This document shows positions 2,349 to 58,107 of a DNA stretch of 64,000 nucleotides, piece by piece. The position numbers and the translations under genes were made by a program. Source of the stretch: Favolaschia claudopus (Eukaryota; Basidiomycota; Agaricomycetes; Agaricales; Mycenaceae); contig JAWWNJ010000098.1 of assembly GCA_037176885.1 (NCBI GenBank), positions 62,001-126,000 of the forward strand. Reading direction: 5' to 3'. Positions within the stretch are counted from its first letter, which is position 1, and each line of letters starts with the position of its first letter. The notes below the pieces were generated by a model. It worked only from the letters and a program-made list of their open reading frames with translations, was not told where the DNA came from and made no database searches.

Positions 2349-2663
2349 GCGCAAGGGTCGTGCGCACACAGACCTGTCCAACAGTGGCATCGAAACACCA
2401 TCCCGACACCATTTCGGCACACCCGTCCCACCCTATACCCTTCCCTTTCATGTACATTTCCTTTCACTCATGCGCTATGGTCTTATGTTTATGTTTCCGC
2501 TAATACCCTCGAAACCCCAAACTTGACTCCCACCCTCACACGACTATACTACACATCCTTCGGACACTTCCATCGCACAACACCTTTATTTATCGCCTCC
2601 GGGCACCGCGTCTTAGTAGATCGTGTACTTGTTGCGGTATAAAAATGCAGAGACAAAAAAAAA
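329..2663 (+). mobile_element. 5'-truncated non-LTR retrotransposon (LINE) inserted in WD40 array
   Basis: A 2335-bp insert with the hallmarks of target-primed reverse transcription: exact 14-bp flanking duplication, an A-run at its 3' end (2655-2663), a coding body carrying the C-terminal part of an RT followed by RNase H and a Cys-rich finger, and loss of the 5' part (endonuclease, ORF1 and most of the RT). The order RT-RNase H-finger fits the I/Tad group of fungal LINEs. The stretch 2349-2654 is 3' untranslated sequence. The exact duplication argues for a fairly young insertion into an already repetitive gene. Confidence 0.88.
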
Positions 2664-2677
2664 GGTGCTGTCATGTG
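2664..2677. repeat. LINE target-site duplication, right copy
   Basis: Exact second copy of the 14-mer found at 315-328, directly after the element's A-run. Confidence 0.9.
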
Positions 2678-2773
2678 AGAAGGCCACCGACGTGATCCAA
2701 TCACTATGCCCCAGCGATGACAACGCCAGTCTGAGAGTCCCAGATGCGCAGAGTGCAATCAGCCGAGCCGGTG
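2664..2773 (-). pseudogene. WD40-repeat array fragment, middle piece
   Basis: About one WD40 unit on the minus strand, contiguous in sequence logic with 1-328 once the LINE is removed. It is cut at about 2773 by the foldback insertion; array sequence resumes at about 3727. Confidence 0.7.
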
Positions 2774-3726
2774 TGGAAGAGGGGTATGGACGGTAGGTAG
2801 AATTTCCTATTTACCGCTTTGTTCCCTTTACCTCGCCGGCTGTCGCCTATTAGACGATCTGTTTGTTGTGTCAGTAGATAGCCAAATAATTACCTTTCTT
2901 TGAGCCCGTACCACCACCATCGACACGTAGTGTTGCCGCGAGCCGAGCCGAGTCGAGCTCCACCTCGAGGTAGCTCGCTCCAAAAAGGTAATTTGTGATA
3001 CAGCTATCTACAAAACACTGGAGCGCTCCGAAAAAAAGTTCCCATTGATGCGATGACGTCAATTACCATATGAGGTAGGCACTGCCGGATCCATTGCGTC
3101 GACGGCTGGCGCGTCAGGGCGGGGCGACCTCGTGTTGCAGCCTAGGCGGCCATGGTAATCAGGAGCCGCTTGTGCAAGAGGGATGTAGCGGAAGGTATTG
3201 TAGGGCATGGTAGGCCAGAGAGACGTTCCAGGAGCAGTGACGAAAGGGCGAGTGTCGTTGGAGAGAGTGGAGCGTGCTGGCCGAATTAGGCAGGAGCTGT
3301 GAAAACCGTTGTGTGAACTTTTTTTCGGAGCGCTCCAGTGTTTTGTAGATAGCCGATAATATCAGGCCGGAAAAGGCAGCCATTACCTCTTTGGGGCAAG
3401 CTACCTCGAGGTGGAGCTCGACTTGGCTCAGCTCGCGGCAACACTATCGACACGACCAGTGACCGGAGTACCCCACCGAGGGCACGTCGCCAGTGAAGTG
3501 AATTCAATAGTGGAGCTGATCACTCCCTCAATCTCGTATTTCCGACCCCCCACGCGTATCTCGAGCCTTCACGCGACTTTCTCAATTTCTACCGACTTTC
3601 GTCTTCTACGCCCGAACGTGATTCTGGGGACAATCTTTTATATTTCTCTCCCACCTCTAACCGTACTACCGGACTTCCGACCCACCGATCCCTTCCACCA
3701 GGGAAGAACTCGATTCTACGTCACCG
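2774..3726. mobile_element. Foldback-type insertion with about 115-130 bp inverted arms
   Basis: Array sequence is interrupted by about 950 bp containing an inverted repeat: left arm about 2928-3041, right arm about 3316-3447. The arms share CTCCACCTCGAGGTAGC and CTACAAAACACTGGAGCGCT, and the 275-bp loop between them shows no gene. On both sides of the interruption the host reads CCGG, so a short target duplication is possible but not proven. No open frame with a recognisable domain lies inside, so this would be a non-autonomous element. Outer limits are inferred from where WD40 similarity stops and resumes. Confidence 0.6.
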
Positions 3727-4810
3727 GATACGACGCGGGTGCTGTCTGGGGAAAAGTCCACCGAGGATATACTTATGGCGACTGTGCCCTTCAAATGGCC
3801 CTGCGGAAAGGGCGCCAGTCTCGGAGTCCCACAAGAGTCCCAGATCCGCACCATGCAATCATATGAGCCTGACACGATACGGGTGCCGTCATGGGAGAAG
3901 GCGACCGAGGTGATCCGGTTGCGATGCCCATCAAAAGGCTCGGCAATGGCAGTCTTGGTCAGCGAGTCCCAGATGCGCACTGTGCAGTCCCCGGAGCCGG
4001 AGACTATGCGGGTGCTGTCGTGGGAGAAGGCCACCGAGGTGATCCAGTAGCTGTGCCCTATAAATGGGCCGGCAACGACGACTCCGGTCTGGGAGTCCCA
4101 GATGCGTAGAGTGCAGTCGTTTGAGCCGGAGACAACGCGGGTGCTGTCATGGGAGAAGGCCACCGAAGTTATCCGCTCGGTGTGTCCTTTGAAGGGCATT
4201 GCCGCGATGGCTCCGGTCTGGGAGTCCCATATACGTTACGTATTAGCGTGCAATCGCCCGAGCCGGAGGCGACATGCGTGCTATCATGAGAAAACGCCAC
4301 CGAGGTGACCACGTCTCAAATGGCCCTGCGACTTGCCTGCGACAATGGCGCCTGTCTGAGAGTCCCAGATGCGTAGAGTGCAATCTTCAGATCCAGAAAC
4401 GACGCGGGTGCTGTCATGAGAGAAGGCCACTGATGTGATCGGCTTGCTGTGTCCTTCAAAAGGCCCACCAATGACAGTGCTCGTTTTAGTGTCCCAGATG
4501 CGCAGAGTGCAATCTTCGGATTCAGAGACGACGCAGGTGTTGTCCTGTGGGAAGGCCACCGATGTGATCCGTTTGCAGTGCCCTTTGAAGGGCTTCAAAA
4601 CCAGAGCTCCTGTTTGGGAGTTCCAGATGCGAATAGTGCAGTCTTTAGAGCCAGACACAACATGGGTGCTGTCATGGGAAAAGGCCACCGACGAGATCCA
4701 GTCACTGTGCCCTTCAAATGGCCCAGCAACGATGGCACCAGTCTGAGAGTCCTAGATCCTCACCATACAATCATATGATCCTGAGACGATTTGGCTGCGG
4801 TCATGGAAAT
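3727..4810 (-). pseudogene. WD40-repeat array, main piece
   Basis: Roughly eight WD40 units of about 43 aa on the minus strand, in two open stretches (4688-4284 and 4199-3666). Typical units read GHTERITSVAFSHDSTRV then CTLRIWDSQTG; the structural GH dipeptide and the terminal WD/WN are kept in most. A frame break lies between 4284 and 4199, where GSxDCTLRIWD sequence degenerates, and the array stops abruptly near 4810 at a GC-rich tandem repeat, so no N-terminal effector or NACHT domain is attached. High unit-to-unit identity is typical of fungal NLR-type WD40 genes that evolve by unit exchange. No function can be expected from this locus. Confidence 0.82.
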
Positions 4811-4854
4811 TTGATTCATGTAGCGCGGGGGAGACCCCCGCGGACCCCCCTTGA

Positions 4855-4950
4855 CGCTCGCCGCTAGGCCCACTGCGTGGTGGTTGCGCTCGCCGCTGGG
4901 CCCACTGCGTGGTGCTACCGCTCGCCGCGGAGGCCCGCTGCGTGGGGCCA
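4855..4950. repeat. Tandem repeat, 32 bp x 3
   Basis: Three consecutive GC-rich units starting at 4855, 4887 and 4919, each opening CGCTCGCCGC and containing GGCCCACTGCGTGG (third copy diverged). They sit where the WD40 array ends, next to GGGGGAGACCCCCGCGGACC. Confidence 0.8.
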
Positions 4951-5064
4951 GATAATATTTTAAAGCGTCGGGGCGGTATTTTCAAGCTAATTACGTGCTG
5001 TGATCTACATCATTTATCTTGATGTGCCGATGAGCCGAGTCCCACTATCAGAGCTCAAGTGTTT

Positions 5065-5340
5065 CTATCCGAGCATCCGAGTGCCACTATCAGCCTTTTT
5101 CCGGAGTTTACCCGAGTCCCACTCCCATCCTTTTGGCCATTCCTCGTTACTCGGCGAATGAGGCGGGAAGGCAGGGCGGGACGGTGAGCGGCGCCAGTGA
5201 GATGATGACCTGGCACAGATCCCGTCGGTTGCTGCTGCCGGATTCAATCTATAATTCCGCTTGGCGTAGCCCCAAACCATCTCAATGGGATTGAGCTTGG
5301 GAAGGAAACTTTGTAGTTTGCACAAGCATCCTCCAAACAT
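5065..5340 (-). pseudogene. DDE_3/Tc1-like transposase, C-terminal fragment
   Basis: The frame contains LPKLNPIEMVWGYAKRNYR, the signature around the third catalytic acid (the E of NPIE) in the DDE_3 superfamily of transposases common in basidiomycetes. Everything upstream of this motif is missing and the residues after NYRLNPAAATDG look like unrelated read-through. It is therefore a short dead fragment. No terminal repeats could be assigned to it. Confidence 0.65.
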
Positions 5341-6075
5341 GATTTCACTGCTGCAAAATCAGGCTGATCGAATAGCATGCGCCGCATACAACAGCTTTCT
5401 GACTTAGCATCAGTGCATTTGAATGACCCGCATTCAAAGTTCTTTTTTTTTCAGGTCCTGCTGGGAGAGATTACCGAGGAGACTAATAGAGGGTTGGTGC
5501 AAAGCGACAAATATGACCAGTGGAATGTTTCAAGAAATGGTGCCTTCAAGGTATCTTCAACTGAGTAAATGCGTGAAGACCGGGAACACAACGATATCGG
5601 CAGCTTCGCATCATCATTTCATAGCGACATTGGTGATGGCCAATTTTAATTGAATTTATTTTGTCGTTTTCTCTGACCTACGTCTGCAGAAAGAATTCAG
5701 ATTCAGACTAGGTTATATGCCTAGATGCCTCAAAATTCATAATTACAAACCACAAAGCAGTCGCTAAACCACGAACGCTAACCAATATCAGTGTCAAAAC
5801 CTCGGACTGCAACCCAAGGGGCTACAATGATAAGAAATTTCTATAATTTCGGACCAACAACTCAAGGTTTTCATATAGTAGGTAGTTTGGAAACGGTAAT
5901 ATAGACTATAACGAGAGAGGAAAAGAAGGTTAAGTATCGCGCAAGGGAATGGAAGTTTGAGGAGTAACAGTATCAAATGTTTGATATGGAAGGGGAAGGA
6001 AGGGGAAGAGGGAGACATAGGGTGGGTATGAATCAAGGATGAAGAATACAGAAGAATAAAAGAGAGCGGAGAGGA
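5341..6075. other. No gene recognised
   Basis: AT-richer intergenic DNA with no convincing frame. The right part (about 5790-6075) directly follows the LINE ORF1 remnant on the minus strand and may be its 3' untranslated sequence. Confidence 0.5.
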
Positions 6076-6912
6076 TTAACGAGGGGATTGTATGTACGGG
6101 AGAGGGTGGATCGACGACTTATCTAAAGCCTGGTGAAGGTCCTTCATGCGCTCCGCCAGAGTTACCGCCAACTCTTTCCGACGCGGGCAGGCATACGAAT
6201 CTGCGCGGTGCTTTCCACCGCAATTGAGGCATTCCACAGGGCCAGAACATTGGGAGGTGTCGCCGTGAGGATGGTCCGCCGAGGGCTTCGCACATATGCT
6301 GCAAGATGGCTTCTTGACGTTGCATCGAGCCTTGGTGTGTCCGTATTTGTGACATCCCCAGCACTGGGAGATGCGAAGATGCGACGGTGGGACTAGTGGA
6401 ACACAGGATGATGCGGCCGCGTGAGAGCGCAAGATCGACCTTTTCGCGTGACTGGAGAAGGAAATATACAGAACCGGCACGTTTTGGCTTACGCCCACTG
6501 GCCACGATGGCGGCTGTCTGCGATTCGGAAGGCGGGCGATTGACCCAAGTTGGGAGACTGGTGACTGGGCCCAAATCTGGATTCCGGATCTCAAACTCGC
6601 GCTTCAACTCTCCCATGTCTGCAACCTCATCAAACGGCACTCCGTTCACCTGAAGGTGGCCATGTAATGCTACCGGCGCAACGCGGCCGCCAGGCAAGAT
6701 CGCAGGACCCCAGCGAGACCACTCCTTGCTGAGTATGTCAGTAGCCAACGCAGATCCAGGTACAAGAAAGATGCTGGTGCTGCTTTGCTTCTTTGCGAAG
6801 AGTAGGCTAGGGAGGGACAAGGAAGCGAGGTGTTTATTGACAGTGGCGGGGTAAGGCGCATTGAAGAGGGGTGGGACGTCACCATCAAAGCGAACGAGAA
6901 TTTTGGGAACAG
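6076..6912 (-). pseudogene. LINE ORF1 (gag-like, CCHC knuckles) remnant
   Basis: Reading from about 6912 down, a frame gives VPKILVRFDGDVPPLFNAPY, then a gag-like body (DILSKEWSRWGPAILPGGRV) to about 6400, where the frame shifts. The second frame carries three cysteine/histidine knuckles: CWGCHKYGHTKARC, CSICAKPSADHP...C and CLNCGGKHRADSYAC. This order is typical of ORF1 proteins of fungal Tad/I-type LINEs, nucleic-acid chaperones that bind the element RNA. The 5' end is lost (an in-frame TGA lies at about 6913) and no ORF2 follows, so the copy is doubly truncated and frameshifted. It differs clearly from the two ORF1-only elements at 11989 and 42474. Confidence 0.75.
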
Positions 6913-7312
6913 CGCATCAGCAATACTTACTTAAGTACGTGGCACACGTGTGAGAACATTTACTGTGAGAACATTTACGCCCTGGGCGGCGGCCTGCTCA
7001 TGACGGGCCGGGATGCAGTTTTACCTGGGGCCCAGCCAATTTGCGCGTGTCCCAGCAGTCACATTTTGAACGTTTTCCACAGATCCCAAGCCTGCAGACG
7101 AGACTGCGAGAAAATACTGCTCCTGTGGAATTCATTATGATCATTAGAATGAAAGCGATGGAGAGAGAACACACCAACGATAGGCTTTAAGCTGACAATG
7201 TTGGTTCTGGGAACCGGTCTCGCCGTTTGGGAGACAGCCTTCACACATCATGGTAAGTTACTTTGCAATCTAAGATGAAGATCATGTAATGTACATCTAA
7301 TGTATCTACTCA
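6913..7312. other. No gene; short direct repeat
   Basis: The 14-mer GTGAGAACATTTAC occurs twice in tandem (6950-6963 and 6965-6978). Otherwise nothing coding is visible. Confidence 0.5.
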
Positions 7313-8128
7313 TGGTGCGGTTAACTTAGTCACCACCAATTGCTGACAACCGTTACTCCTCACCCAAAAAAAACCCAGATTTTCTATTCCTCTTGTAGAA
7401 ACACTCTGTTCAGTGAGAGGAAACTTTTCCCAAGACCAATTAATATTTGGTGCAAAAATGGGGGAGTGTGATGCGAGTCGTTTCGGCGGCTTCTTGGGAA
7501 AGAGGGAAGAGGGTGACCTGTGCTCTTGAGGCACAGAGGTCGGGAGCTGTGGGACGAGCGCGTTGTGAGCGCTCGCCATCGTTGTATCCCAGTGACGAGG
7601 GACCGTGTTACCCTCGATCGGAGCCCCTGCAACACCGGGGCCGTGGAGTAGTTAGACGCATACTCAGGCAAGCAGGGGGTCCAACCGAGAGCTGTGGTTC
7701 GCAGCATGAATATCTTAGTCTTCACACATCGTAGTAGATTGCAAAGTAAAGATTGTATTATGTAATGATGACAAGCGGAATATAAGGTATCAAACGTGTA
7801 AGTAAGTAATATAATAATATGTACCCGTCACAGGGAGTAATTCAATACTCAGTCGACCAAATTGGGACTCCCTGCCACATAACCACCACATGGGTGCACA
7901 CAGGCTTGTTCACGTCTTCATGTACTCTCGTGAGTATCCAAATAATGATGTCTTGCTCACTGCAGCACCAAACATGGAATATTTTGAGAATCCTGGCACA
8001 CAAAATTTGCCGTTTTTGTTCCGTTTGGGGGGCATGTTGTGACCGGCGAGGTACATCCCAGCAAAATTTTTGGCTCCTGTGGATTTGAGAGTGGGGCAAC
8101 TTTGGTGGTCACTAAGTTAACCGCACCA
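7313..8128. mobile_element. 816-bp non-autonomous TIR element (TGGTGCG family)
   Basis: Terminal inverted repeats of about 27 bp: TGGTGCGGTTAACTTAGT then CACCACCA on the left, the reverse complement on the right with one mismatch. TA follows on the right; the left flank reads CA, possibly a mutated TA. No transposase frame is present. Termini with the same layout (TGGTGCG, spacer, CACCACC) occur at 44057-44518 and as a lone end near 37373-37399. Confidence 0.8.
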
Positions 8129-8493
8129 TACAGAGATGTGAGATAAGTAAGATTTGAGATAAAAGATATTTGAGTAAAGTAATGGCCACGGGCCGCGTAA
8201 GTACTATTCAGCAAGAAAATATGTGTGTATCACACACAGTGAGCCTGGCTCACAATTTGAAACAAGATCTACTTATTTGGAACTCTTCAACGATAGATAG
8301 GTGATCAGGACATGACAATATTAATGTCACCCCACAAATAGACGACTGAATAGGTACTTATCTTAGCCTGGCCTGACGGGTTGCCGTATTTTGGAGGCAG
8401 TCAACACTAGAGGAGTACTCAATCAACCAGATAGAGCTCGAAGCAGCCAAGAATGACAGAAGAATAGTGTGGTCATTCAGGAGAAGCCGTTGT

Positions 8494-9945
8494 AGCTTCA
8501 ATTATTGCAGTTTGCAAATATATTGGCACAAGGGGCGCTCAATTCTTAGCTCGTCAGCTCGTCTCGTCCGTAAAATATCGATTTTTTGATGAGGGGATCA
8601 AAATTTGATGGGAAGTGGAGAGAAATGCGGAGTGGGATCAGCAGCTCATCAGCTCATCATGCAATTAAATAATTTCTGGGACGAGACGAGCCGACGAGCT
8701 AAGAATTGAGCTCCCCTACAGCCGCATTTTGATAGAATTTTGAGGCGCTACAGTATATGATTTATTCCTCCCTCAATTCCGAGTGGATTCCTTTGAGACC
8801 ATAACCAAAATTCACCGTTTTGCGAGGCGCATCCAGCCATACCAAATTTGTAGCGAAATACGCGAATCTCAAAATCTCAATATCCTACCAACAGCTGTTC
8901 GGCGCGTGAAATTACGCCGTAAAATCAGGGCGCTTTGAGAGAAAGTCCAAGGTAGAAAGTGTTCATATACCTATCGGCTACATACCTGTCAAGTTTGAAA
9001 CAAAACGGGGGCGGATTGACGCGCCCGCGATGCGTCGAAGAAGCTCATCATTTGGTTATGATGATCCGCGGTCACTTGGGATGCTTTGCCTCTTTCTTCC
9101 ACCCTCTTAGGCCTCTGTCGGTCCGCGAGCGCTTCAGACTACTTAAGAGGGCACCGGGAGACCCGTTCCTTGTTGGATTTGCCTAGTGTATCTTTTATGC
9201 AAAGGAAGGAAGCAACAATACGCTATCTATTCGGCCGTAGTACCAAGATTTGTCCAAGACTCTGGGGTCGAACATGGAAGCCAACCTTCAAGGCATTCTG
9301 CAGAATCTGCAATCAAGCTTGGGCCCTTTCTCGATGTCTTGGAGCGCCCCGTAGATCATGAAGAGGCTCTTACCTACTGAGATGCCGCCAGTGGTACCTT
9401 GAACGGGGTACACTCAGTGGCCCTGGTGTGTCACTACAAGGTGTTGTTCCTCAAAGCTCCGCTAAGCGTGGACCCAGAGCGTTGAGCAGGCATTTGGGGT
9501 ACGCTATTGACCTTTGAGCAAGCAGCCCTTTCTTCCTGCACTGAGCTTTCGCGGTGGCAACCCGTCCGATCAGCGCATTGATTGGCCTTCTTCGACGCGT
9601 CGCGGCCGCGTCAATCCGCCCTCATTTTGTTCCAAACTTGAGAGGTGTGTAGCCGGGAGGTATTCAAACAGTTTATACCTTGAACTTTTACCTCAAAGCC
9701 CCCTGATCTCACCGTGTAAATTCACGCGCCGAACGGTTATTGAAGGATATTGAGATTTTTAGACACGCGTATTTAGCTATAAATTTGGTATGGCTGGATG
9801 CGCCTCCCAAAACGGTGAATTTTGGTTATGGTCTCAAAGGAATCCACTCGGAATTGAGGGAGGAATAAATCATATACTGTAGCGCCTCAAAATTCTATCA
9901 AAATGCGGCTGTGCCAATACATATGCAAACTGCAATAATACAAGC
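8494..9945. mobile_element. Long-arm foldback element, about 1.45 kb
   Basis: Two inverted arms of about 340-370 bp at roughly 85% identity by eye. Left arm 8494-9050 (with a 187-bp MITE inside), right arm about 9575-9945; shared landmarks include ATTATTGCAGTTTGCA near the ends, CAGCCGCATTTTGATAG, and GGGCGGATTGACGCG at the inner edge. The central 500 bp has no recognisable gene, so the unit looks non-autonomous. Its transcript could form a long duplex. Confidence 0.82.
8531..8717. mobile_element. 187-bp MITE, 3-bp target duplication
   Basis: Ends AGGGGCGCTCAATTCTTAGC and, in reverse complement, AGGGGAGCTCAATTCTTAGC; the inverted similarity extends about 40 bp. ACA flanks both sides (8528-8530, 8718-8720), and the undisturbed opposite arm of the host element reads GGCACAGCCGC across the same site, so the empty site is visible in this very window. 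Confidence 0.9.
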
Positions 9946-11476: not shown

Positions 11477-11988
11477 GGATCGCAAATTTAAGTCTTTCAA
11501 TGATGCGTACGGTAAGTCTCCGCACTGACAGGCGACCAAGCAGCTTCTATGAAATCGCTCCTAGCACTCATGGTGGCAAGAAAAGGATATCGGCGCAGTC
11601 TCGATCTGTGTATTCCTTTTATAAAACGGGGATTGTTGACACATAAGCAATGGGAAGCAACAATGGAAGCCCTTTTGACATGATTTGGCTCTGCTTCTTT
11701 GTCAACAATGGGACTAGACTCGTGACCAGTCTACTACGCGAGGCCGACAAATGTGGCAAGCACGTCGGGCGTACTGTAGACTTTCGACCAAAGGTTCAGG
11801 TGACGGGTGACAGGCACCCGTGAACTGAACAATTTTGAACATGGTGACGGGTGACACTCCCATTTTTCGTCCAAAAAAGGGCAAAAAACGTCAAAATTTT
11901 CGGGCCGGCTGTCGCCGGCCTACCATATCAGGTAATTTGCTGTGCTGTGAACTATTTGTTCAGTGAACAATGAAGGTGACGGGTGAGG

Positions 11989-13233
11989 ATGCCTCTTGAT
12001 CCGGTACCACCACCTGCTCCGAGGGCGCTCCCTAGCGCCACTATCCAGAACCTCCACAAAATCATCTACGCTGTGAAACTCCCAAAAACCACCAATGCTA
12101 AATCTTGCACCGTTCCTCTTGCTGACTGGAATACCATTCGGGCGCTTGCCGCCGCACTTGTACAGCAGCCTGCTGCCAACTCCAATACCACCCGCATCGA
12201 CTCCTTGACCACAAAACTCGACACTATCATGACCAAACTGGAATCCCTACCCAATTTGACCACCCAAACCACTCCAGCATCCATTATCTCCCCAGACAAA
12301 ACCTACGCTTCTGTCGCTGCCAGCTCACCCGCCACGTCACTGGCCCCTTCCCACGTCACCCGTGACACATCACGTGACCTCATCTTGACCCCAAAGGATC
12401 GCCTTCACAAGGCGTTCACCAATGACAGCCACTACGCAATCCAACAGCAGTTCAATGCACTGATGGATCGGATGGAGTTTGACTCCCCTGTTCACCCATC
12501 TGCCCGTGCTGTTGCGAAATATCGCAATGGAGACATCCGTCTCACCCTCACGGGAGTCGACGAGGTAGAGGTCCTTCGGGACAATCTCGACGGCTGGCTG
12601 CCGGCATTCTCTAGTCTGCTCCAGGCTCGCTCTCCATCCTTTGCTGTTGTCATGCATCGTGTGCCCACTGACTTTGAAGTTGGTAATGGCACGGTGGATG
12701 CAGACAATGACTCATGGGAGAACGACATTTTGGAGCTAGCACTTGCGAATGAAATTGACCATCAGAATCTGGTCCGAGTTCACTGGATCGGACGCCGTTC
12801 CAGCGAGCAGGTCCGTAGGACCAAGAAATTCTCATCACTCGTTCTTCACTTCAACGACTTGGATGTGGCGAACTATTTCATTACGAATAAGCTCGCCCTC
12901 CATGGTCACCTTCATCGCACCGAGAAATACTGCCCGCAGCCCCTCCAATGCTTCAACTGCTACCGGTTTGGACACATTGCTGCGCAGTGTAAACGCTCTG
13001 CTGTTTGCGGCACCTGCGCCTCCGACCACCCCACTTCCAACTGCCACTGCCCCCATAAGACTCCCTGCCGTACCAACTCCACTGGATGCTCCCATATCGT
13101 GCTCAAATGCGCCCTCCGGGGATGCGGCGGGCAGCACCGATCCACTGATCCTGCATGTCCCGTCCGTCAGTCGATTCTTCGTCGCATCGCAGCCGAGCAC
13201 CATGCATCGGGGCCGTTCTTCCGTGCGGAATAA
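11989..13233 (+). CDS. ORF1 gag-like nucleic-acid binding protein, 414 aa
   Basis: An uninterrupted 414-aa frame starting MPLDPVPPPAPRALPS. An N-terminal Ser/Thr/Ala-rich half is followed by a domain with the conserved-looking stretch VRVHWIGRRSSEQVR (about residues 260-280) and LVLHFNDLDVANYFITNKL, then a Cys/His cluster: CFNCYRFGHIAAQC (CCHC knuckle), CGTCASDHPTSNC, a third Cys-rich segment and CGGQHRSTDPAC. This is the layout of ORF1 proteins of fungal non-LTR retrotransposons, which package and chaperone element RNA. The paralogue at 42474-43718 has exactly the same length and roughly 90% identity by eye, with both frames intact, which suggests that the protein has been maintained. A GTG six bases upstream is in frame, but the second copy starts its element at this ATG, so ATG is preferred. 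Confidence 0.85.
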   Translation: MPLDPVPPPAPRALPSATIQNLHKIIYAVKLPKTTNAKSCTVPLADWNTIRALAAALVQQPAANSNTTRIDSLTTKLDTIMTKLESLPNLTTQTTPASIISPDKTYASVAASSPATSLAPSHVTRDTSRDLILTPKDRLHKAFTNDSHYAIQQQFNALMDRMEFDSPVHPSARAVAKYRNGDIRLTLTGVDEVEVLRDNLDGWLPAFSSLLQARSPSFAVVMHRVPTDFEVGNGTVDADNDSWENDILELALANEIDHQNLVRVHWIGRRSSEQVRRTKKFSSLVLHFNDLDVANYFITNKLALHGHLHRTEKYCPQPLQCFNCYRFGHIAAQCKRSAVCGTCASDHPTSNCHCPHKTPCRTNSTGCSHIVLKCALRGCGGQHRSTDPACPVRQSILRRIAAEHHASGPFFRAE

Positions 13234-28745: not shown

Positions 28746-30668
28746 TCAAAGATGGTGGTGTGAGGAAGGTGAAACAGTAAGGGAAGAGGGGGAGACAGCG
28801 ACTGTGGCAGGGCGGGTACCAGACTTTGGGAGTGGCCACAGAGGACGCAACTCAGCAAGACTGAGCCACTTGAAGCGAGAGAGGGCGTCAGCGACTGCCT
28901 TTTCATGGGTGGGGATCCACAGTGGGCGGAAGGTGAAATCGTGATGCACCGCAAGGAGAGCAAATGCACGAAACAAAGCCTGAGTTGGTGGGTGATCAAT
29001 GGAGCCAGACTGTAGGCAGGTAGAGATGGCTTCGTTATCAATACGAAAGACAACCTCAAAGCCAGTCCAGCAGTGGCCCCAGATCTCCGCAGCACGCAGG
29101 ACTCCGCGCATCTCCTTCCAATGGATTGGATGACGACGGTAGCGTGCTGGCACTGGCTCAGTGAAGAACAGGTCAACACCTGCCCAATGTCCACCAATAC
29201 CAAGCTTGCCACTGGCATCAGTGAAAACCTCGAAGCTGATACGAGGAGGTCCAATCACATAAATGCCATTCAAAGTTGGCAGGAATGAGTTCCACCAAGC
29301 AATGTCAAGCTTGGCAGAGGCAGGAAGGCGACGGCGTTGGCGACGGGGAAGGAAGGCGAGACTCCGCAGGAAGTCTCGGATGCGACGGGTGAAAAAGCGA
29401 CCAACGGGAATCACGGACTGAGCAAAAACGAGGTGACCACACAACTGCTCGAGTTCGTAGTGGCTAGCAGGACCCCGGGACAGACACTGATCGAGCAGCA
29501 AAAGAAGCCGACCAAGCTTGTCTGCAGGAAGGCGTGCCTGCATCTTCACGGTGTCAAGCTCAATGCCGAGAAACTCGAGGCAGTGAGTGGGCCCCTCCTC
29601 CTTATCACCGGATATTGAAAAACCAAGCTCCGCAGCTACGGAGCGGAAAACAGCACGACCATGCTCAGCATATGCCAAACCCTTGGAGGCAGGGGTGACA
29701 TTGATCCAGTCATCCAGGTAATGCTGGATGAGCTTCATGACTTCATCACGAGACAGTAGAATCCAGTGATGAGCCTCCGCAAAGTAATTGCACAGGCGTG
29801 GACCAGTACGAATACCGAACGGCAGGAAGATGTCCAGGAGTAGACGCATCTTCCACTCAAAGCCCATCAGATGTACATGGTCTGGGTGAATTGGAATATG
29901 CCTGAACGCTGCCTCCAGATCTGCCTTGTAAAGGAAGGATCCAGGGCCTGCCTTCCGTACACGGTCAATAGCCCCCATGACAGCCTCGTAGACCAGATGG
30001 CCGTACTCAGCAGGGATCGCGTCATTGACTGAGGATCCAGGAGGATATGAGAGGTGATGGATCCGACGACGTTTCTCGCTATATTTCTTGGGCACGGAGC
30101 CCAGCGGAGAAAGGACAGGCTTAACAGTATCAGCCATGTCTGTGATGTCAATGATACGCCCAAGAGAGACCTCATGGGCAATATCCTTGTCCACTGTCTC
30201 GGGGAACGCAAGCGCGGATGGAAGAGGGGCAGGGGCAGAAGGAGATGGAGAGGGCATAAGCATAGGATCCACACCCAAGAGAACACCGTGGCGGATAGCA
30301 GAGACAAAGGTCTCAGCGAACGAGCGATCTGGGTAGTCTGCGAGCGCACGAGCCCACGCCTCGGGGTGAAGCTTCGTCGGAGGGATGGGTTTTAAATGCG
30401 AAGTAGTGAGAGGGAAGAGTAGGTCCGTGTTGGGGCGTGCCGGGGGCAGGGATTGCGCCATAACCTCAATCGGGGAGAGAGGGCGGTCAGAATCGGCTGT
30501 ATGGGTGACTAGGGGAGGAGATGGGACTTTCCTGCTCAAATCTGAGCGAGGAGAGCCAGAAGCATCTCTCCCTCGCTCACCCGGCTTTGATAACGCGCCA
30601 TCAGGGGATTTTTCTGAGGCAGGACTGGCCGAGCTACGTCCGGGGGGTTTGAGGAACGGCGCGCGCAA
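28746..30668 (-). CDS. Ngaro/DIRS-like reverse transcriptase-RNase H, about 640 aa frame
   Basis: One long uninterrupted frame. An N-terminal linker with FPLTTSHLKPIPPTKL and WARALADYPDRSFAET is typical of DIRS/Ngaro proteins. The RT follows (about residues 185-395): SVPKKYSEKRRRIHHLSYPP, the first catalytic acid in KADLEAAFRHIPI, LPFGIRTGP and the active-site HYLDDW (about 316-321). RNase H follows (about 485-600): FTDASGKLGIGGHW, HWKEMRGVLRAAE, FRIDNEAI and PTHEKAVADALSRF. Members of this order usually also encode a tyrosine recombinase for integration; none was found downstream (27500-28745) or in the other frames. No split terminal repeats were identified. The frame starts at a TTG, so the true N terminus (perhaps a gag fusion or a spliced exon) is not fixed. 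Intact RT but apparently incomplete element. Confidence 0.82.
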   Translation of the reverse strand: MRAPFLKPPGRSSASPASEKSPDGALSKPGERGRDASGSPRSDLSRKVPSPPLVTHTADSDRPLSPIEVMAQSLPPARPNTDLLFPLTTSHLKPIPPTKLHPEAWARALADYPDRSFAETFVSAIRHGVLLGVDPMLMPSPSPSAPAPLPSALAFPETVDKDIAHEVSLGRIIDITDMADTVKPVLSPLGSVPKKYSEKRRRIHHLSYPPGSSVNDAIPAEYGHLVYEAVMGAIDRVRKAGPGSFLYKADLEAAFRHIPIHPDHVHLMGFEWKMRLLLDIFLPFGIRTGPRLCNYFAEAHHWILLSRDEVMKLIQHYLDDWINVTPASKGLAYAEHGRAVFRSVAAELGFSISGDKEEGPTHCLEFLGIELDTVKMQARLPADKLGRLLLLLDQCLSRGPASHYELEQLCGHLVFAQSVIPVGRFFTRRIRDFLRSLAFLPRRQRRRLPASAKLDIAWWNSFLPTLNGIYVIGPPRISFEVFTDASGKLGIGGHWAGVDLFFTEPVPARYRRHPIHWKEMRGVLRAAEIWGHCWTGFEVVFRIDNEAISTCLQSGSIDHPPTQALFRAFALLAVHHDFTFRPLWIPTHEKAVADALSRFKWLSLAELRPLWPLPKSGTRPATVAVSPSSLTVSPSSHHHL

Positions 30669-42252: not shown

Positions 42253-43718
42253 TAATAATAATAAAGTTCCATTTTTATAGTAACTGGACGCCGTTTACGG
42301 CGTATGATGCTACTCTAAACATGAGATTCTACTATTGATTGCATTTATATGGGTGGGAGTGGTTTTCATGGGTTCAGTAGGAGTAATCCCGGGGGTGAGG
42401 GAGAGCAGGGAATTTGTGGATACGTGAGGGGTCTGGGAGCAAGAGGAAGGGGCAGGGATTGGCATTGGGGAAATTAATCCGTGGGGAAAAACGGCCCCGA
42501 TGCATGGTGCTCGGCCGCGATGCGTCGAAGAATCGACTGACGGACGGGACATGCAGGATCGGTGGATCGGTGCTGCCCGCCGCATCCCCGGAGGGCGCAT
42601 TTGAGCACGATATGGGTGCATCCAGAGGAATTGGCACGACAGGGAGTCTTGTGGGGGCAGCGGCAGTTCGAAGTGGGGTGGTCAGAAGCGCAGGTGCCGC
42701 AAACAGAAGGTCGTTTGCACTGCGCGGCTATATGTCCAAAACGGTAACAGTTAAAGCACTGCATGGGCTGCGGGCAATACTTCTCGGTGCGATGGAGGTG
42801 ACCGTGAAGAGCGAGCTTATTCGTAATGAAGTAATTCGCCACATCCCGATCATTGAAGTGCAGAACCAATGACGAGAATTTCTTGGTCTTTCGAACCTGC
42901 TCGCTGGAACGGCGTCCGATCCAGTGAACTCGGACCAGACTCTCGTGGTCGACTTCATTCGTATCTGCTAGCTCCAGAATGTCGTTCTCCCACGAGTCAT
43001 TGCTCGCATCCAAAGTGCCATTACCAACATTGAAGCCAGTGGGGACACGATGCATGACAACAGCGTAGGAGGGGAAACGAAATTGGAGCAGACTGGAGAA
43101 TGCGGGCAGCCAGTCGTTGAGGTATTCCTGAAGGACCTCTACCTCTTCGACTCTCGCGAGTGTAAGACGGATGTCTCCGTTGCGATATTTCGCAACAGCA
43201 CGAGCCGATGGGTGGATAGGGGAGTCAAACTCCATCTGGTTCATGAGTGCATTGAACTGTTGTTGGATTGCGAAGTGGGTGTCGTTGGCGAACGCCTTGT
43301 GGAGGCGATCTTTCGGGGTCAATATGAGATCACGTGATGTGTCACGGGTGACGTGGGAAGGGGCGAGTGACGTGGCGGGTGAGCTGGCGGCGACAGAAGC
43401 ATAGGATTTGTCTGGGGTGCTGGTGGATGCAGGAGTGGTTTGGGTGGTCAAAGTGGGTAGGGATTCCAGTTTCGTCATAATGGTGTCCAGTTTTGTGGTC
43501 AGGGACTCGATGCGGGTGGTATTTGAGTTGGCAGCAGGCTGCTGTACAAGTGCGGCGGCAAGCGCTCGAATGGTATTCCAGTCGGCAAGAGGAACGGTGC
43601 AGGATTTAGCATTGGTAGTTTTGGGAAGTTTAACAGCGTAGATTATTTTGTGAAGATTCTGGATGGTAGCGCTGGGAAGCGCCCTCGGTGCAGATGGTGG
43701 TACCGGATCAAGAGGCAT
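42253..43718 (-). mobile_element. ORF1-only LINE-like retroelement, copy 2
   Basis: Exactly 1466 bp between 14-bp target duplications. On the minus strand the first base is the A of the ATG and the last bases are a (TTA)n tail following the perfect stem ACGCCGT-AA-ACGGCGT (42288-42303). The same length and limits as 11989-13454 show that the element is a discrete retrotransposed unit rather than a random 5' truncation. Confidence 0.9.
42474..43718 (-). CDS. ORF1 gag-like nucleic-acid binding protein, 414 aa, copy 2
   Basis: Intact frame from MPLDPVPPSAPRALPS to a stop at 42474. It shares with the copy at 11989 the core RVHWIGRRSSEQVRKTKK, FNDRDVANYFITNKLALHG and the Cys/His cluster CFNCYRFGHIAAQC, CGTCASDHPTSNC, CGGQHRSTDPAC. 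Differences are spread as single substitutions (for example LTGVDEVEVLRDNLDGW against LARVEEVEVLQEYLNDW) without any indel. All cysteines and histidines of the knuckles are kept. A role in binding the element RNA is inferred from LINE ORF1 proteins. There is no RT in cis. Confidence 0.85.
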   Translation of the reverse strand: MPLDPVPPSAPRALPSATIQNLHKIIYAVKLPKTTNAKSCTVPLADWNTIRALAAALVQQPAANSNTTRIESLTTKLDTIMTKLESLPTLTTQTTPASTSTPDKSYASVAASSPATSLAPSHVTRDTSRDLILTPKDRLHKAFANDTHFAIQQQFNALMNQMEFDSPIHPSARAVAKYRNGDIRLTLARVEEVEVLQEYLNDWLPAFSSLLQFRFPSYAVVMHRVPTGFNVGNGTLDASNDSWENDILELADTNEVDHESLVRVHWIGRRSSEQVRKTKKFSSLVLHFNDRDVANYFITNKLALHGHLHRTEKYCPQPMQCFNCYRFGHIAAQCKRPSVCGTCASDHPTSNCRCPHKTPCRANSSGCTHIVLKCALRGCGGQHRSTDPACPVRQSILRRIAAEHHASGPFFPTD

Positions 43719-51919: not shown

Positions 51920-52327
51920 CTAGAAATTCTCAAGTACCTCAGTACTCTCGAAAAGCGCATCACGATTAGCAGCTTCGGCGAAATGAATACCATGTGCAGA
52001 AAATGCAGGAGGTTTGCCTTTCGACACCACCGTGTTCAGGTCAGGACAATTACGTGAAAGATGTCCATGGACGCCACAGTTGAAGCACAAACCAGCGGCA
52101 AGGTGTTTCTTGACAGAAAGATGCTTTCCGTTATCACGGGAGTTCGTGGGAGGTTCAAGTTCGGCACTGGAAACTGAGACAACGCGCCCTCCCGTACTAC
52201 GTTTCTCATTCAAATCTGAATCCAGTTTCGGATCGTCTGACTTGGAACGAGCTTTCAGGCTGTCTCGGTAACCCAGAGGTACCGGTGATCCGCGCCACGC
52301 GAGGTCGAGTAAAAATGATGGGCGCAA
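51920..52327 (-). pseudogene. LTR-retrotransposon gag fragment with CCHC knuckle
   Basis: The minus frame ends in LAAGLCFNCGVHGHLSRNCP, a canonical CCHC zinc knuckle (C-x2-C-x4-H-x4-C) preceded by basic/Ser-rich sequence (GYRDSLKARSKSDD), as in gypsy-type gag. Only about 135 aa and no protease or polymerase. It lies just left of the two-gene element, whose target duplication starts 40 bp upstream of this frame's ATG, so the element landed in or beside old retrotransposon sequence. Confidence 0.65.
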
Positions 52328-52368: not shown

Positions 52369-52377
52369 ACACGCACA
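52369..52377. repeat. 9-bp target-site duplication of the two-gene element, left
   Basis: ACACGCACA, directly outside the terminal TAGACCGGT; exact copy at 58099-58107 outside the opposite terminus. The next base (T) also agrees, so up to 10 bp match. Confidence 0.8.
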
Positions 52378-52493
52378 TAGACCGGTAACCAATCTCTCGT
52401 ATGAAGACAATCGTTCATAGAGAGACCGGTCGATCTGAGTTTGAATCTGTTTGCTGCGCGAATTGATCGCATCAGTCATGCTTTTGGCACGTG
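52378..52493. repeat. Left terminal inverted repeat of the two-gene element
   Basis: Contains AGACCGGT twice (52379 and 52423) around the hairpin TCTCTCGTATGAA..TTCATAGAGAGA. The inner 71 bp are identical to the right end. Confidence 0.88.
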
Positions 52494-52588
52494 CCTTCCG
52501 CCTTCTCCTCCTGCTTTCATTACCGTGCTCGTCTATATTGCTTGTATTACACCACAGCACGCGTTTAATACTACGATAATTCACTCAA

Positions 52589-55500
52589 ATGTCGAGTGAC
52601 TCGTCCTCCTCGCTCCCCGCCGTTAATCTTCCCGTTCCTGGGTCCCAGTACAACGTTACAGCTCAGCAGGAGCCCAGCACCGGCGGCGCCATTCAGTCTC
52701 TCCCTGCCCCTACTAGTCGAATCTCAACCGCCAATACATACGACGGTTTTTTCTCTGCTTTCTCACAGCCCAATCACCGCGTTCCGAATTCCCGAAGGAG
52801 TGAATCCGATATTCGCAGCACTGTTTCATCATTCCAGGCACAATTTCAATCTACGCCGTTCAATCCAGATGCTTTTCCTTCATCGGGATATGACACCTTT
52901 TTTTCCAAAGCTTCCATTCGGCCAGAAATACCATCGCGTCCCGTGATAAGCGCCCGACCCGCTACGACCCGTCAGGTTCCTTCTCCGAACTCAGTTGTCG
53001 ACCACATTCCAACCTCGTCTCCCCTGCTGCGCTCGGCGCCAATCTCACGTTCGCATGCTCCCCAAAATCCACCTTCTCCGGATACCTCAATTGATACACT
53101 CGTGGACTTCTCTGAACCAGAACCCGTCCCTGAAACCGTCGAAAAGCCCGCGGCCTCTGATATCCCCTCCTTACCGAAAGGATCGGAGGACGAGAAGATA
53201 GGCGTTATTCTCCAGATGCTTAGAAAAGCTCGAATATCCCCCACTACTCTCTTCCTCGCCGCGCTGACGAAATCGACCTACGCCGACAAATTCTATACCT
53301 CGGAAACTCGACCTACACAGCTACTCGAGACGCTGTACGATGACCCGCGTGGAAAGCTGATTCTCGATGAATGGTTCTGGCCGCACTCGCTGGATCTTGT
53401 TTGCGACCGTCTCACGTCAGAAGCGAACTCGATGGTCAAATCCCTGAGCACTCATAAGAGCGTCTCGGACATGACGCCAGAGTTCCTACGATCGTGGAGT
53501 CCGAAGGATACTGTGGCGAAGAAGGCGGATGAGGAGGCGCCAACTCTCTTGCGAGTATTGCGGTGCACATTGAATGACCAGAAATCGCTGGAGAAGAATA
53601 AGAAAAAATCAAATGAAACGGCACGTTCATCTCTCGTCATACGCTCATCCGCTTCTGACGCTATCGTACCAGGCTTGTTATACGTTGTTGGGCCAGCTAG
53701 TCAGCCGCAGATCCCAACAGGCTCTAGACTTCGCTGGACCATTATCTTTGATGTGGTGGGCCAGTGGTTGCTCTCGCGAGGCGGTCGAGATATTACAGCA
53801 AGTCGGCTTGTCAAAGTGCTTTGACACCACGAAGAAACTCCTTAAATCCACCGCTAACTATTGTTTGTCAAATGCGAAGAATCTTGTGCGTCGTTCTGAC
53901 GGCTACCTATTCAACTACGATAATATCAACTTTTCCACGTCTGAGTACGTCGAGCAGCGCGCAATGGCACCTGCGAAAGTTCAATCCGGTACCCACTTCA
54001 TCGTCCTTGAGCTGCTGAACCCCAATCCTGCGGCGTACGACCTCCCCTTCCTTCTCTCGCGAGCCCGGAATGCTCCCGATCTCGACTTCAACCGAGATCT
54101 TGTCCCAACAGTCGAGCAGAGTCTGGCTGTCCATCACCGACTCTGCTCGTATGTCATACGGGTATTTTTCCGCTATCATAAATCAATGCAGAAGCGAACT
54201 CTCGATCCCGAATTGCAGTCGCCCCCACGTCGTCCCCTTCCACCCAGTCACACAACCAAACAATTCCCTCTGAAGATATGCACCATCGAAGAGGCATCCG
54301 TCAAAGGCAACCTCGCCTGCTTCGTGGAGTCGCATATCACTCAACTTGGACTGACATACGACGAACTGACAAAGCCTATCTTGTCTATAAACGACCAGGC
54401 GACTCAGGCGTTGAATCGTTCCGCCAAATCCATCCGCGCATTCGACAAAAATCCCTTCTTGCGCTGCCAAATCTGGCAACTCGGCATCGGTCTGTTTCAT
54501 CTGTGTCTTAACCTCATCTGGGCAATTCTGCATGTTCACCGTGGGCATGTAAATCACCACGGAACCCTGTCCCATCTATTCGTGATCATGGAGAAGGCTC
54601 GCCTCGGCGGTCATCACCCGGACTATCACTCCCTTCTAGCCGCACTAATGCAAATATTGGACGGCCTCCTTCTTGACGCTTGGAGAATTGAATGTGGCCA
54701 CGCCACTCTCGACGAATATGCGGCCTCTAATCCGTCAGTAGCCGATCTTCGCAACAAGGCTGCAAAGATTCTCTACAATCATGCAACTCCAACACGTACT
54801 CCGCTTCTCTCTTCCCATCCTCTCGACACTGTCCGCGAAAATACTCGTCGGCTTATCCATGATTTGATATATGTCTCGGAAGTTACTCGGGCGGTTTCGG
54901 AGGGAGATTTTGGTCGAGTTGAAGATATTTTACCAACACTGGGAATGATGTTTCGGGGAGCTGGCTCCAAGAATTATTCGACAGAAATTCTCCATTTCAT
55001 TCACAATATGAAGCATGTTTGGAACGGGAATGGCTTTGAGTGAGTTTCTCCATATTGCCGTTCGCCCGAGCAAGTCACTAATACTCACCGCCAGCGAGGT
55101 AGTTCGAGACAACATGATCGTGAGGATGAAAGGGAATCATTGTGAAGGGGTGGATGCCAATATGGAACACAATATTGGCCGCATCAAGGTACAGCTGTTT
55201 CGTCTTTTATAATTCATCTATACAGCGTTGACATCGCAAAGGAATTGTTTGCGACCAAGGGCATGTATGGCAGCTGGGACCGCCTTGCCGACATCTCAGC
55301 TGCAATAGATGTCATCGACAGCGTGAAGAAGAATGCTGCCATGTCCTTGGGCGCATCCTATCAAGGTTCCTCTCATAAAACGGTTGATACTTCACATCTG
55401 GTATGGCGTGTTGCTCACAAAGCTCGCGAGTTGAGCCTCAATACATTTCTCGCCACACGCGACAACAACTCTAAACCCTCTGTTGATATTCTCTCTGCCG

Positions 55501-55658
55501 GGGAGGCCGTTCTCAAGTCTGCTAGTCTGGCAACGTTCAACAAGAACCGTCGGGCTTTGTTGAAGGGAATTATGATGGAGGAAGAGAAGGATGACTTACC
55601 TGCGATGAATTTGAGTCGTGAAGCTCCCATAGAGTTTGGCGCAGATTTAGAGCAGTAG
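52589..55658 (+). CDS. DUF6589-family protein, about 980 aa, spliced
   Basis: Begins at the ATG 211 bp inside the left terminus. Residues 1-200 are low-complexity and Ser/Pro-rich; from about 205 (EDEKIGVILQMLRKARISPT) the folded part begins. A 37-nt intron (53636-53672) joins ETARSSL to ACYTLLGQLVSRRSQQALDF. Then come the family hallmarks: GYLFNYDNINFSTSEYVEQR (D near residue 432), ILSINDQATQALN (position of the family GDQ-T motif), QIWQLGIGLFHLCLNLIWAI, SEGDFGRVEDILPTLGMMFR then GAGSKNYSTEILHF. A second intron (about 55042-55094) leads to EVVRDNMIVRMKGNHCEGVD, and the last exon (from about 55227) gives KELFATKGMYGSWDRLADIS. The junction near 55190-55226 does not splice in frame as I read it, so the model is unsure there. 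DUF6589 has no established biochemical role; the spaced acidic motifs recall RNase H-fold transposases, which is inference only. Confidence 0.8.
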
Positions 55659-55731
55659 TTCAACATTTATAAACCGGATAGAATCATTACAAGCTTCTTC
55701 TGCATTATTACAATCTGGTTGAGTAAGTGAA

Positions 55732-57881
55732 TTAGTGTTTACGACGTTTCCTCGCAGGTTCCTCGTCCTCCCTTGCATGCCTACGATCATATTCCGAGAT
55801 GATATCGAAAAGAGACTGCGCCCACATCCCCTCCCACTCCTCAGACTGCTTGAGTAGCGACACAATGCTCTTCGGAGACGAAATCAAAGCAGGATCCGCC
55901 ATAGACAAGGTTTTGAGAGCAGGGGCGTCGAGAATGAAGGAAGGGGGACGGACAAATCGCAATTCGTGACTGGAGTGAGTGTTTAGCAGCCATGTAGTTG
56001 TAGTTAGTAAATCCACCAGAGGGTCACGGTCTTTGACATCTCTGTATTTGTTTCGCTTTCGTTTTGCAGGTTCTCGAACTTCGCCGGTATAGATGGGGCC
56101 GAGGAAGAGCTTGGCGAGTGAGAAACCGTTATCTGGGTGACCATCGCAGCACCAGCGGCAAGTGAACTCGAGTGCTGAGCGCCATCAGCTAAATGAATGC
56201 GGCAAAGATGGGTCAATTACCTTCAGGAGAGTCGTCCTCGAAGAACTTAGCATATGCCTCGCGCTTGCAGGTTTCACAGCGTGCAAGCTGAACAGAAGCC
56301 ATGCCGACGCGTTCCTTCTTGGTCGGAGTCTTCTTCTTCAGTCCGTCAGGCAGAACGGGGCGATCAGGATCGTCAGGATCGTAAACGGCTGTAGTCAGAT
56401 CCATTTCGTTCACCCACGGCTCCAGCATCGTCACAGCGAATGCGTCATTATTCGTACTTCTACCCCCGCGCCCTTCCCATTGAAACCGCATCGGAACCTT
56501 CTCGGTTAGTCCGTAAATGACAACACCTTCGATACCTTTGATGTCGGCCCCCTGAAGGACGGGCATCGTTAAGTTAAAGCACATAAAGTTTAACGTAAGG
56601 AAAAAATTACTTCGCCACAGCCCGACGTCGCATGCAGAATCAAGACGTCGCCATCAGGGTCCGCAAAGCTGTTGTAAGTTTCTTCCAAGTACTCGGGAGA
56701 CATGTCGCTGTGATAATGTCGACAGATTCGTAGGCTATGGAAGGCGGGGGGGAGCCGTGAGTTGTTGTATTCTGCGAATGTGCTGGTTTCGGCCTTGTCG
56801 CCATGAAGAATGAGCAGGTTTGGTAAGCGCATGGGAGGATGAAAAGAGGGCGGAATGATGCAGTCCAGGTTCCGCAGGTTGTAGCGGCCATCGATGAGCA
56901 CATGAGTCGCATAAATAATGTTGGGACGATTGATTGATACACGTATAGAGGTGGCGTTCGATGCGAAAGCAAGCTTTTGATGAACGACGCGGTGAATGTA
57001 GCTGGGGATCGTGGCAGAAAGGGCTTGCACGCTGACGTCCTTCGATAACTGAGCCCGTAGCTCGTCGAGCTTTCCCCAGGCTGGGCGAAAGGGCGGTCGT
57101 CCGTTGAGAGTTGTTCCAGAGGTGTAGATATTATGGGCTTCATCTATAGTGAGTCGTTTGATTTTATTGACGAAGACACGATTGCGGAGCAGCTTGGCTA
57201 GGCGCGGGAGATGACCATTTTGGAGCCGAAATTGTTCCGGTTGAACTATCAGATGACGAAACACACCGTCCTCGACTGCCTGCCAACAAATCACTTCGGG
57301 ATGCAAACTGAATTGGCTGTGCAACGAACCTTCCACAATTCAGGCGAGTTCGGTGTATCTTCGTTGATTCCTAGTGTCGGGATGTTGTACTTGTGCATGA
57401 AGTCTAGAACTTGCATTCTTTGTAGTCGTTTAAGTGGGGAGATGGTGATGGTCATTGTGTCGGGTTGAAGGAGGAGAGGAATAGCGATGCATAGAGTCTT
57501 TCCGTACCCAGTCCGGGCTATGACCATGCTGTCTCTGCCCGTGATAGCTGCCATTGAAGCCTCCAGTTGACCTTCGCGCGGCACCATCGCTCCTCGTGTG
57601 AGTGAATATATAACCAGACAAGCCCGAAGCATGATTGCACACTCCGTTTGCGAGAAAGAAAGCAGAAACGACCGAGAAGGGAATTTCGAAGGGACAATGA
57701 GCATAGCAGCATAGCGAATGATGTCCTCGTCGTCGAGCTTCAGCAGAACTGAGAGTAGAATTGGAATATAGAAAGGATGCAGCCGATTGAGATGAAGTCC
57801 ATATGCGAGTGACTGATTGAAGTGAAACAGCGGTAGAGTTGGGTATACAGCCAGATGAGGTGAGAGGTAGTCGTTGGACAT
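55732..57881 (-). CDS. RecQ-family DNA helicase, 664 aa, spliced
   Basis: Four exons on the minus strand: 57881-57330, 57279-56611, 56551-56221, 56174-55732; introns 46-59 nt, all GT-AG and frame-keeping. Motifs in order: motif 0 VPREGQLEA (about 100-108), Walker A IARTGYGKTL (about 120-129), IVQPEQF, DEAH box LTIDEAHNI (about 227-235) followed by FRPAWGKL, SAT motif ALSATIP, a RecQ-C region with CRHYHSDMSPEYLEETYNSF, motif V ATSGCGEGADIKGIEGVVIY and motif VI QWEGRGGRS. A Cys pair set (CETC..CRWCC) made by the third splice resembles the RecQ zinc site; a basic tail RKRRKH may be a nuclear signal. It starts 217 bp from the right terminus. Such helicases are multi-copy in Agaricomycetes and related ones sit near telomeres in other fungi. 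Here it likely serves the element's own movement or replication. Confidence 0.85.
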
Positions 57882-57979
57882 GTCGAAGGTTGCGGCCAGG
57901 CAAGGCGCGGCGCGTCTGGCGCGTCGCTAGCGCGCGAAGGAAGAGGAAGGAGTGGGAAGGAGGAGAACGACGCGAGAGC

Positions 57980-58098
57980 CACGTGCCAAAAGCATGACTG
58001 ATGCGATCAATTCGCGCAGCAAACAGATTCAAACTCAGATCGACCGGTCTGTCTACCGACGAACTTGTTCTCTAGTAGACAGATCGGTCACCGGTCTA
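57980..58098. repeat. Right terminal inverted repeat of the two-gene element
   Basis: Inverted counterpart of 52378-52493; its hairpin is CTGTCTAC..GTAGACAG, a different sequence with the same placement. Confidence 0.88.
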
Positions 58099-58107
58099 AC
58101 ACGCACA
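58099..58107. repeat. 9-bp target-site duplication of the two-gene element, right
   Basis: ACACGCACA, exact copy of 52369-52377. Confidence 0.8.

Follow-up and report, generated by a model that had tools for sequence, protein, structure and literature searches.

Do two genes that lie between inverted repeats in the basidiomycete Favolaschia claudopus, one for a DUF6589 protein and one for a RecQ-type helicase, constitute a single transposable unit, and if so, of which kind? The question was raised by one locus in a 64,000-nucleotide stretch of contig JAWWNJ010000098.1, the whole of which is referred to here as the window. Positions 52378-58098 correspond to a DNA transposon of 5,721 bp with the ends TAG...CTA. 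The longest inverted repeat without a mismatch spans 71 bp and pairs a left arm at 52423-52493 (plus strand), which contains the subterminal motif GACCGGTCGATCTGAGTTTGAAT, with a right arm at 57980-58050 (minus strand). A first-pass annotation had described this repeat correctly together with outer 21-bp inverted termini; the latter are imperfect, with 18 of 21 positions (86%) complementary between the left outer repeat (52378-52398, plus strand), which starts with TAGACCGGT, and the right one (58078-58098, minus strand), which ends with ACCGGTCTA. The 9-bp direct duplication that it had placed outside the ends is present as ACACGCACA at 52369-52377 and 58099-58107. A subterminal 23-mer had 338 occurrences in the genome with up to two mismatches, versus 0 for the reversed control, indicating that the terminal motif is not due to chance.

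The element is mobile, with these boundaries and with a 9-bp duplication of its target. A second full copy, of the sort that the first-pass annotation had proposed to look for, was found in the F. claudopus genome with 99.3% identity and a different 9-bp duplication. Empty sites were identified for both full copies, each with a single copy of the target sequence. A flank search gave 41 matches, from which six loci were retrieved (one of them in the window), the remaining matches having partial flank coverage or a poorer match. Eight further two-gene loci, representing six sites, had TAG ends and exact 9-bp duplications; at five of these sites a boundary was set partly with the 9-bp criterion itself. 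The target duplications were varied 9-mers. In the genome, the window type was found as two full copies, whereas terminal motifs were numerous, and perfect duplications of 9-10 bp flanked 12 of 14 short copies (369-789 bp), which are too small for either gene. Among the 20 loci examined, three (L012, L027, and L028) yielded no paired ends with a duplication and two (L016 and L020) yielded no perfect duplication; neither inverted repeat nor duplication was found for C206 and C4. It could be argued that two host genes came to lie inside an inverted repeat produced by chance or gene conversion, and protein P0123, a 99-100% match to the window helicase, is indeed publicly named hus2/rqh1. The second copy and the other duplications speak against this explanation, and it was rejected because empty sites exist, leaving it a negligible probability. 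The proposal that the locus is one transposable unit is supported by the second copy, the empty sites of both copies, and the additional two-gene loci.

As annotated, the element encodes only two genes, which are convergent and interrupted by introns; the splice sites of both are a reading placed by comparison with relatives. The DUF6589 gene is on the plus strand and has four exons, at 52589-53620 (splice placed by relative P0002), 53673-55039, 55095-55188, and 55242-55658 (including the stop codon), encoding 969 amino acids. The most plausible first intron has GC-AG borders and a length of 52 nt. Exon 2 matches Pfam PF20231 (E value of 3.4e-69). The RecQ-type helicase gene, on the minus strand, also has four exons and encodes 664 amino acids. 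Exon 1 (57330-57881) carries Walker A and matches Pfam DEAD (E value of 6.3e-10), exon 2 (56611-57279) carries DEAH and SAT, exon 3 (56221-56551) carries motif VI GRxGR and the first cysteine pair, and exon 4 (55732-56174) carries the second cysteine pair, a basic C terminus, and the stop codon.

The first-pass annotation had named the DUF6589 protein as a candidate recombinase and suggested structure comparison, which supports that idea: the predicted fold is that of a DDE transposase, and a D-D-E set is conserved. The candidate catalytic residues are D427 and D585, encoded by exon 2, and E824, encoded by exon 3 within DxNxEH; all three acidic residues were retained wherever they were covered. 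The predicted fold recalls those of the P element, hAT (Hermes), and Transib/RAG1, and a long helical stretch precedes the last acidic residue. The Foldseek ranking was uninformative by itself: DDE recombinases accounted for nine of its first 50 rows, none of them significant. PF20231 was detected in 81 of 81 DUF6589 proteins scanned with Pfam. The family is common in mushroom genomes, with 319 proteins at an E value of ≤0.001 among 8000 scored candidates.

The two genes are linked and have been inherited together. A survey of co-occurrence, also suggested earlier, covered 13 loci with long flanks, and at 12 of them DUF6589 adjoined the helicase, C3 being the only one without it. At 30 helicase loci read with short flanks, DUF6589 was visible at 15; it was absent in the short flanks but present in longer ones at L034, L036, and L043, and the other 12 comprise L044, which is C3, and 11 that were read at short flanks only. 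C28 and C4, chosen for their low identity as expected host RecQ genes and intended as a negative control for linkage, both had DUF6589 beside the helicase, so the linkage figures have no true negative control. Divergences of the two genes matched (Mantel r of 0.97; the test was run in three variants, with C20 dropped in one and C20, C79, C28, and C4 dropped in the third), and both genes were under purifying selection with equal codon constraint across the lineages aligned. No DUF6589-helicase fusion protein was found at an E value of 0.001 among 6456 long candidates. Viral and prokaryote contig collections gave 94 and 57 pattern matches, respectively, 0 of which were confirmed as relatives.

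Each end of the element is predicted to form a hairpin when modeled as single-stranded DNA. The left hairpin (52380-52431, plus strand) has an outer stem GACCGGT..ACCGGTC and an inner stem TCTCTC/GAGAGA, and its folding (DNA z of -3.58) was equaled by 0 of 200 shuffles. The right hairpin (58042-58096, minus strand) has a stem and loop unlike those of the left one, and its folding (DNA z of -2.35) was equaled by 5 of 200 shuffles. The stems vary in sequence but mostly still pair. A bolder reading, to which we give little credence, is that DUF6589/RecQ elements form a group apart from Academ, in which the hairpins of the two ends differ and are kept by paired changes, and in which transposition requires RecQ to open or melt them, end recognition being more structural than sequence based.

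We consider it very likely that the element is an autonomous transposon of the AcademH type, with the DUF6589 protein as DDE transposase and the RecQ helicase probably unwinding DNA during transposition. In this model, which builds on a predicted fold, D-D-E set, and end hairpins, the DUF6589 protein, with its RNase H fold, would recognize the hairpin-bearing TAG...CTA ends, cut them, and join them to the two target strands at points offset by nine bases, with repair then leaving the 9-bp duplication. The helicase travels and is selected with the transposase and would most likely unwind the end hairpins, formed once the ends are single stranded, or a strand-transfer or donor-gap intermediate. 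The earlier suggestion that it aids replication or strand transfer is compatible with these observations. The helicase step, transposition by cut-and-paste instead of copying, and Academ membership are all inferred. Copying transposition, with the helicase driving replication from a single-strand or strand-transfer intermediate and the donor keeping its copy, would agree with the retention and constraint of the helicase in the lineages aligned and with hairpins that were modeled as single strands, but cut-and-paste would account equally well for a duplication of just 9 bp and for empty sites that are clean, and we regard copying as unlikely. Similarly low is the probability we assign to a helicase that is dispensable for transposition and protects the element or host cell, for example in donor-gap repair. 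Short copies have spread with no room for genes, which does not reveal the enzymes that mobilized them, whereas matched divergence and equal codon constraint show retention of the helicase, not its purpose.

DUF6589, a family without an assigned function, is now tied to a probable DDE transposase role by mobility, empty sites, inheritance matched with RecQ, and predicted fold. This would allow many Agaricomycete proteins now annotated as "hypothetical", and some annotated as "RecQ helicases", to be reclassified as transposon genes. Hairpin ends and a co-inherited RecQ helicase also provide a testable model for helicase carriage by some DNA transposons.

Several known systems share features with the element. 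The P element, hAT (Hermes), and Transib/RAG1 resemble it in the predicted fold of the transposase, but the DUF6589 protein had no sequence match in the PDB at an E value of 1, and we know of no RecQ partner in these systems. Helitrons are likewise fungal transposons with a helicase, but they use an HUH nuclease and are not known to have target duplications or inverted repeats, both of which the window element has (the duplications being of 9 bp), along with an enzyme that is DDE-like. Kolobok elements target TTAA, in contrast to the varied 9-bp duplications observed here. KolobokH is fungal and combines a RecQ helicase with a DDD/E transposase, as the window element does, with the helicase downstream of the transposase domain (PMC9587614); in the window element the helicase is a separate convergent gene. 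KolobokH and Helitron were rejected because of target duplication and gene layout. Mutator (MULE) elements have a transposase domain given as pfam10551 in PMC8290104; no MULE model was found at an E value of 0.01 in the Pfam scan of the 81 DUF6589 proteins.

The first-pass annotation had matched the pairing to no established superfamily, but AcademH fits, and the pairing is therefore less novel than was implied. AcademH has terminal inverted repeats, as does the window element. It was reportedly placed as a lineage of the Academ superfamily by Kojima in 2020. Academ encodes a RecQ helicase (PMC3627910, PMC6416283) and is counted among DDD/E superfamilies (PMC9587614), and AcademH has target duplications of 9 or 10 bp (PMC10045372) and is present at low copy in hosts that include Basidiomycota (PMC10799480). 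The window element correspondingly has a RecQ/SF2 helicase, a DDD/E transposase as judged from predicted fold and conserved D-D-E residues, 9-bp duplications, with 9-10 bp at short copies, and two full copies in a basidiomycete. No difference from AcademH emerged in the features compared. A separate superfamily, in which an unrelated DDE transposase acquired RecQ independently and the 9-bp duplication is coincidental, would accord with a limited literature search that found no published mention of DUF6589 (its assignment as a transposase appears to be unpublished), but the type of helicase, the length of the duplication, and the host each agree with published descriptions of AcademH and fungal Academ, and we hold this alternative to be quite improbable. 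The element most likely belongs to the AcademH lineage of Academ, matched by description rather than by transposase sequence, and is real and probably a new member of an already described kind of fungal transposon.

The element at window positions 52378-58098 is a real, mobile unit of two genes. It begins with TAGACCGGT, ends with ACCGGTCTA, and carries ACACGCACA on both flanks. The outer arms, 21 bp each, show 86% complementarity and enclose an inverted repeat of 71 bp that is perfect (52423-52493 with 57980-58050). The two genes are convergent, with DUF6589 on the plus strand and a RecQ-type helicase on the minus strand, and each has four exons. The plus-strand product is 969 aa long, with the Pfam DUF6589 match in exon 2 (E 3.4e-69); intron 1 (window 53621-53672, plus strand, 52 nt) is best read as GC-AG, this first splice having been placed by the relative protein P0002. 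The minus-strand product is a helicase of 664 aa, with Walker A, DEAH, SAT, and GRxGR motifs, and with two cysteine pairs at the position of the zinc module in RecQ proteins. The best solved relatives of P0122, a Mycena relative, were WRN, RecQ, and BLM, and its top NCBIfam model was recQ_fam, scoring under that model's curated cut-off. P0123, a Favolaschia protein encoded on a contig equal in length to C98 and matching the window helicase at 99-100%, had recQ_fam as its sole NCBIfam match (E 1.7e-4). The record for P0123 bears the name 'ATP-dependent DNA helicase hus2/rqh1, partial', which presents it like a repair gene of the host.

A second full copy, on contig C61, is 99.3% identical to the window element; its helicase reading frame shifts near residue 86. 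For the window copy, the joined flanks spanned the junction in all five fetched paralogous loci (four matching at 97%, and a fifth, aligned to part of the query, at 91%), and the alignments of two of these empty sites, L065 and L066, contain a single ACACGCACA. An unoccupied counterpart of the C61 site, with one GCCCTCGAG, was found on contig C6. The first-pass annotation had proposed a two-gene mobile element, which the second copy with its other duplication (GCCCTCGAG, versus ACACGCACA at the window copy) and the empty sites for both copies support.

Perfect duplications flanked 15 of 20 fetched loci (3 long and 12 short), all of 9 bp apart from one of 10 bp; 12 of the 14 short copies had a perfect 9- or 10-bp duplication. 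At up to two mismatches, the terminal 19-mer occurred 282 times in the genome, versus 24 for its reversed control, and a subterminal 23-mer 338 times, versus 0. Ten two-gene loci, representing eight insertion sites, had TAG ends and exact 9-bp duplications (window, C61, C99, C52a, C20, C79, C21, C52b, C32, and C28), the duplication itself having helped to set an element boundary in the last five; at C206 and C4, no TAG-ended exact 9-bp duplication was found. The C99, C52a, and C20 copies (fetched as L010, L011, and L059) occupy a common insertion site and, because their flanks and duplication are identical, are alleles or duplicated segments. They differ in length inside the element, and the C20 copy is inverted relative to the other two. 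C28 (L074 with L077) shows a nested insertion, in which a two-gene element lies 47 bases in from the end of a second TAG-ended element (1883-9610 and 1930-8400 in joined coordinates); the two have different 9-bp duplications, and the second element holds a helicase fragment.

The left flank of the window element contains a CCHC zinc-knuckle ORF (window 51920-52327), and at least four further copies of this flank exist in the genome (L062-L065). Elsewhere in the window, long ORFs at 765-2348 and 28746-30668 matched RNase H and, below threshold, reverse transcriptase, and ORFs at 11983-13233 and 42474-43718 gave no Pfam match.

Linkage of the two genes was read at 13 helicase loci with long flanks (window, C61, C99, C52a, C20, C79, C21, C52b, C32, C206, C3, C28, and C4), out of 92 exon-level helicase matches. 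DUF6589 and helicase genes were convergent neighbors at 12 of the 13 loci, with C3 as the exception. C28 and C4, chosen as likely host genes, are among the 12, which leaves this count with no negative control. Among 30 short-flank loci, 15 included DUF6589; of the other 15, three gained it with longer flanks, one was C3, and 11 are known from short flanks only. Identities at codon positions 1/2/3 were 0.62/0.71/0.325 (DUF6589) and 0.60/0.70/0.32 (helicase) against C20, similar for both genes against C99, and 0.51/0.61/0.31 and 0.50/0.64/0.27, respectively, against C79, a pattern indicating that both genes are constrained. Their divergences matched across 10 loci (Mantel r 0.976; 0/20000 permutations), with C20 left out (r 0.971; 1/20000), and on 6 loci (r 0.963, p 0.0125). 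Beyond this genome, six contig sizes were common to the 120 DUF6589 matches and 97 helicase matches listed, including metagenome contigs of 4048, 5310, 6279, and 6588 bases; 120 shifted comparisons gave a mean of 0.5 and a maximum of 3. From size alone, we infer that matches of equal size lie on the same contigs.

Both ends of the window element can fold back on themselves better than most shuffled sequences (DNA z-scores of -3.58 on the left, with 0/200 shuffles as good, and -2.35 on the right, with 5/200), as can ends of C99 (-2.97, 1/200) and C79 (-4.61 and -6.87, 0/200 for each). Stems and loops vary between the left and right ends of the window element and between lineages, yet mostly remain paired. 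Across six distinct ends, aligned with the C79 left row one base out of register and scored on a structure derived from one of those same sequences, 86.5% of cells were paired, versus 23-47% after sliding. Shuffles reached the paired percentage in 6/500 cases, the number of double changes in 7/500, the count of three doubly changed pairs in 31/500, the covariation score in 32/500, and the number of pair types in 466/500. Given the misregister and the structure taken from one member, these figures offer moderate support at best for end hairpins that may be maintained in pairing despite changed sequence. The window, C79, C21, and C52b types have two unlike end hairpins, and the C99 type has two alike. 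Unlike hairpins are present in L069 (711-7074), L060 (1726-7905), and L070 (732-6468); in L069 the types are swapped in gene side relative to the other two, as though by inversion of the interior or an exchange of ends. A short copy (L024, 301-1089) has a chimeric or nested terminus on its right, where two element ends stand in tandem: the initial 21 bases from one end type precede an end of a different type.

The DUF6589 protein, a candidate DDE transposase, would join the transposon ends to the target nine bases apart, which would account for the 9-bp duplication. Because the helicase is co-inherited and constrained, it is expected to have a role in transposition, and most simply it would open the end hairpins or intermediates. 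A sentence in the discussion of PMC10045372 links the 9-10 bp duplications of AcademH, a published lineage of Academ transposons, versus the 3-4 bp duplications of AcademX, to helicase versus nuclease.

The first-pass annotation was right on the biology; it had matched the element to no established superfamily, but the element most likely falls within a kind of transposon that is already published. A literature search covering few subscription papers found no paper on DUF6589. PMC3627910 states 'RecQ Helicase in Academ', and PMC6416283 describes DEAD/recQ_fam domains in Academ copies from fungi. AcademH target duplications are 9 or 10 bp (PMC10045372), and PMC10799480 describes AcademH as present at low copy number in Basidiomycota, Ascomycota, and Mucoromycota. 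The window element resembles AcademH in its RecQ helicase, its duplication size within 9-10 bp, and its Basidiomycota host, and on these published descriptions of helicase, duplication size, and hosts it is probably an AcademH member.
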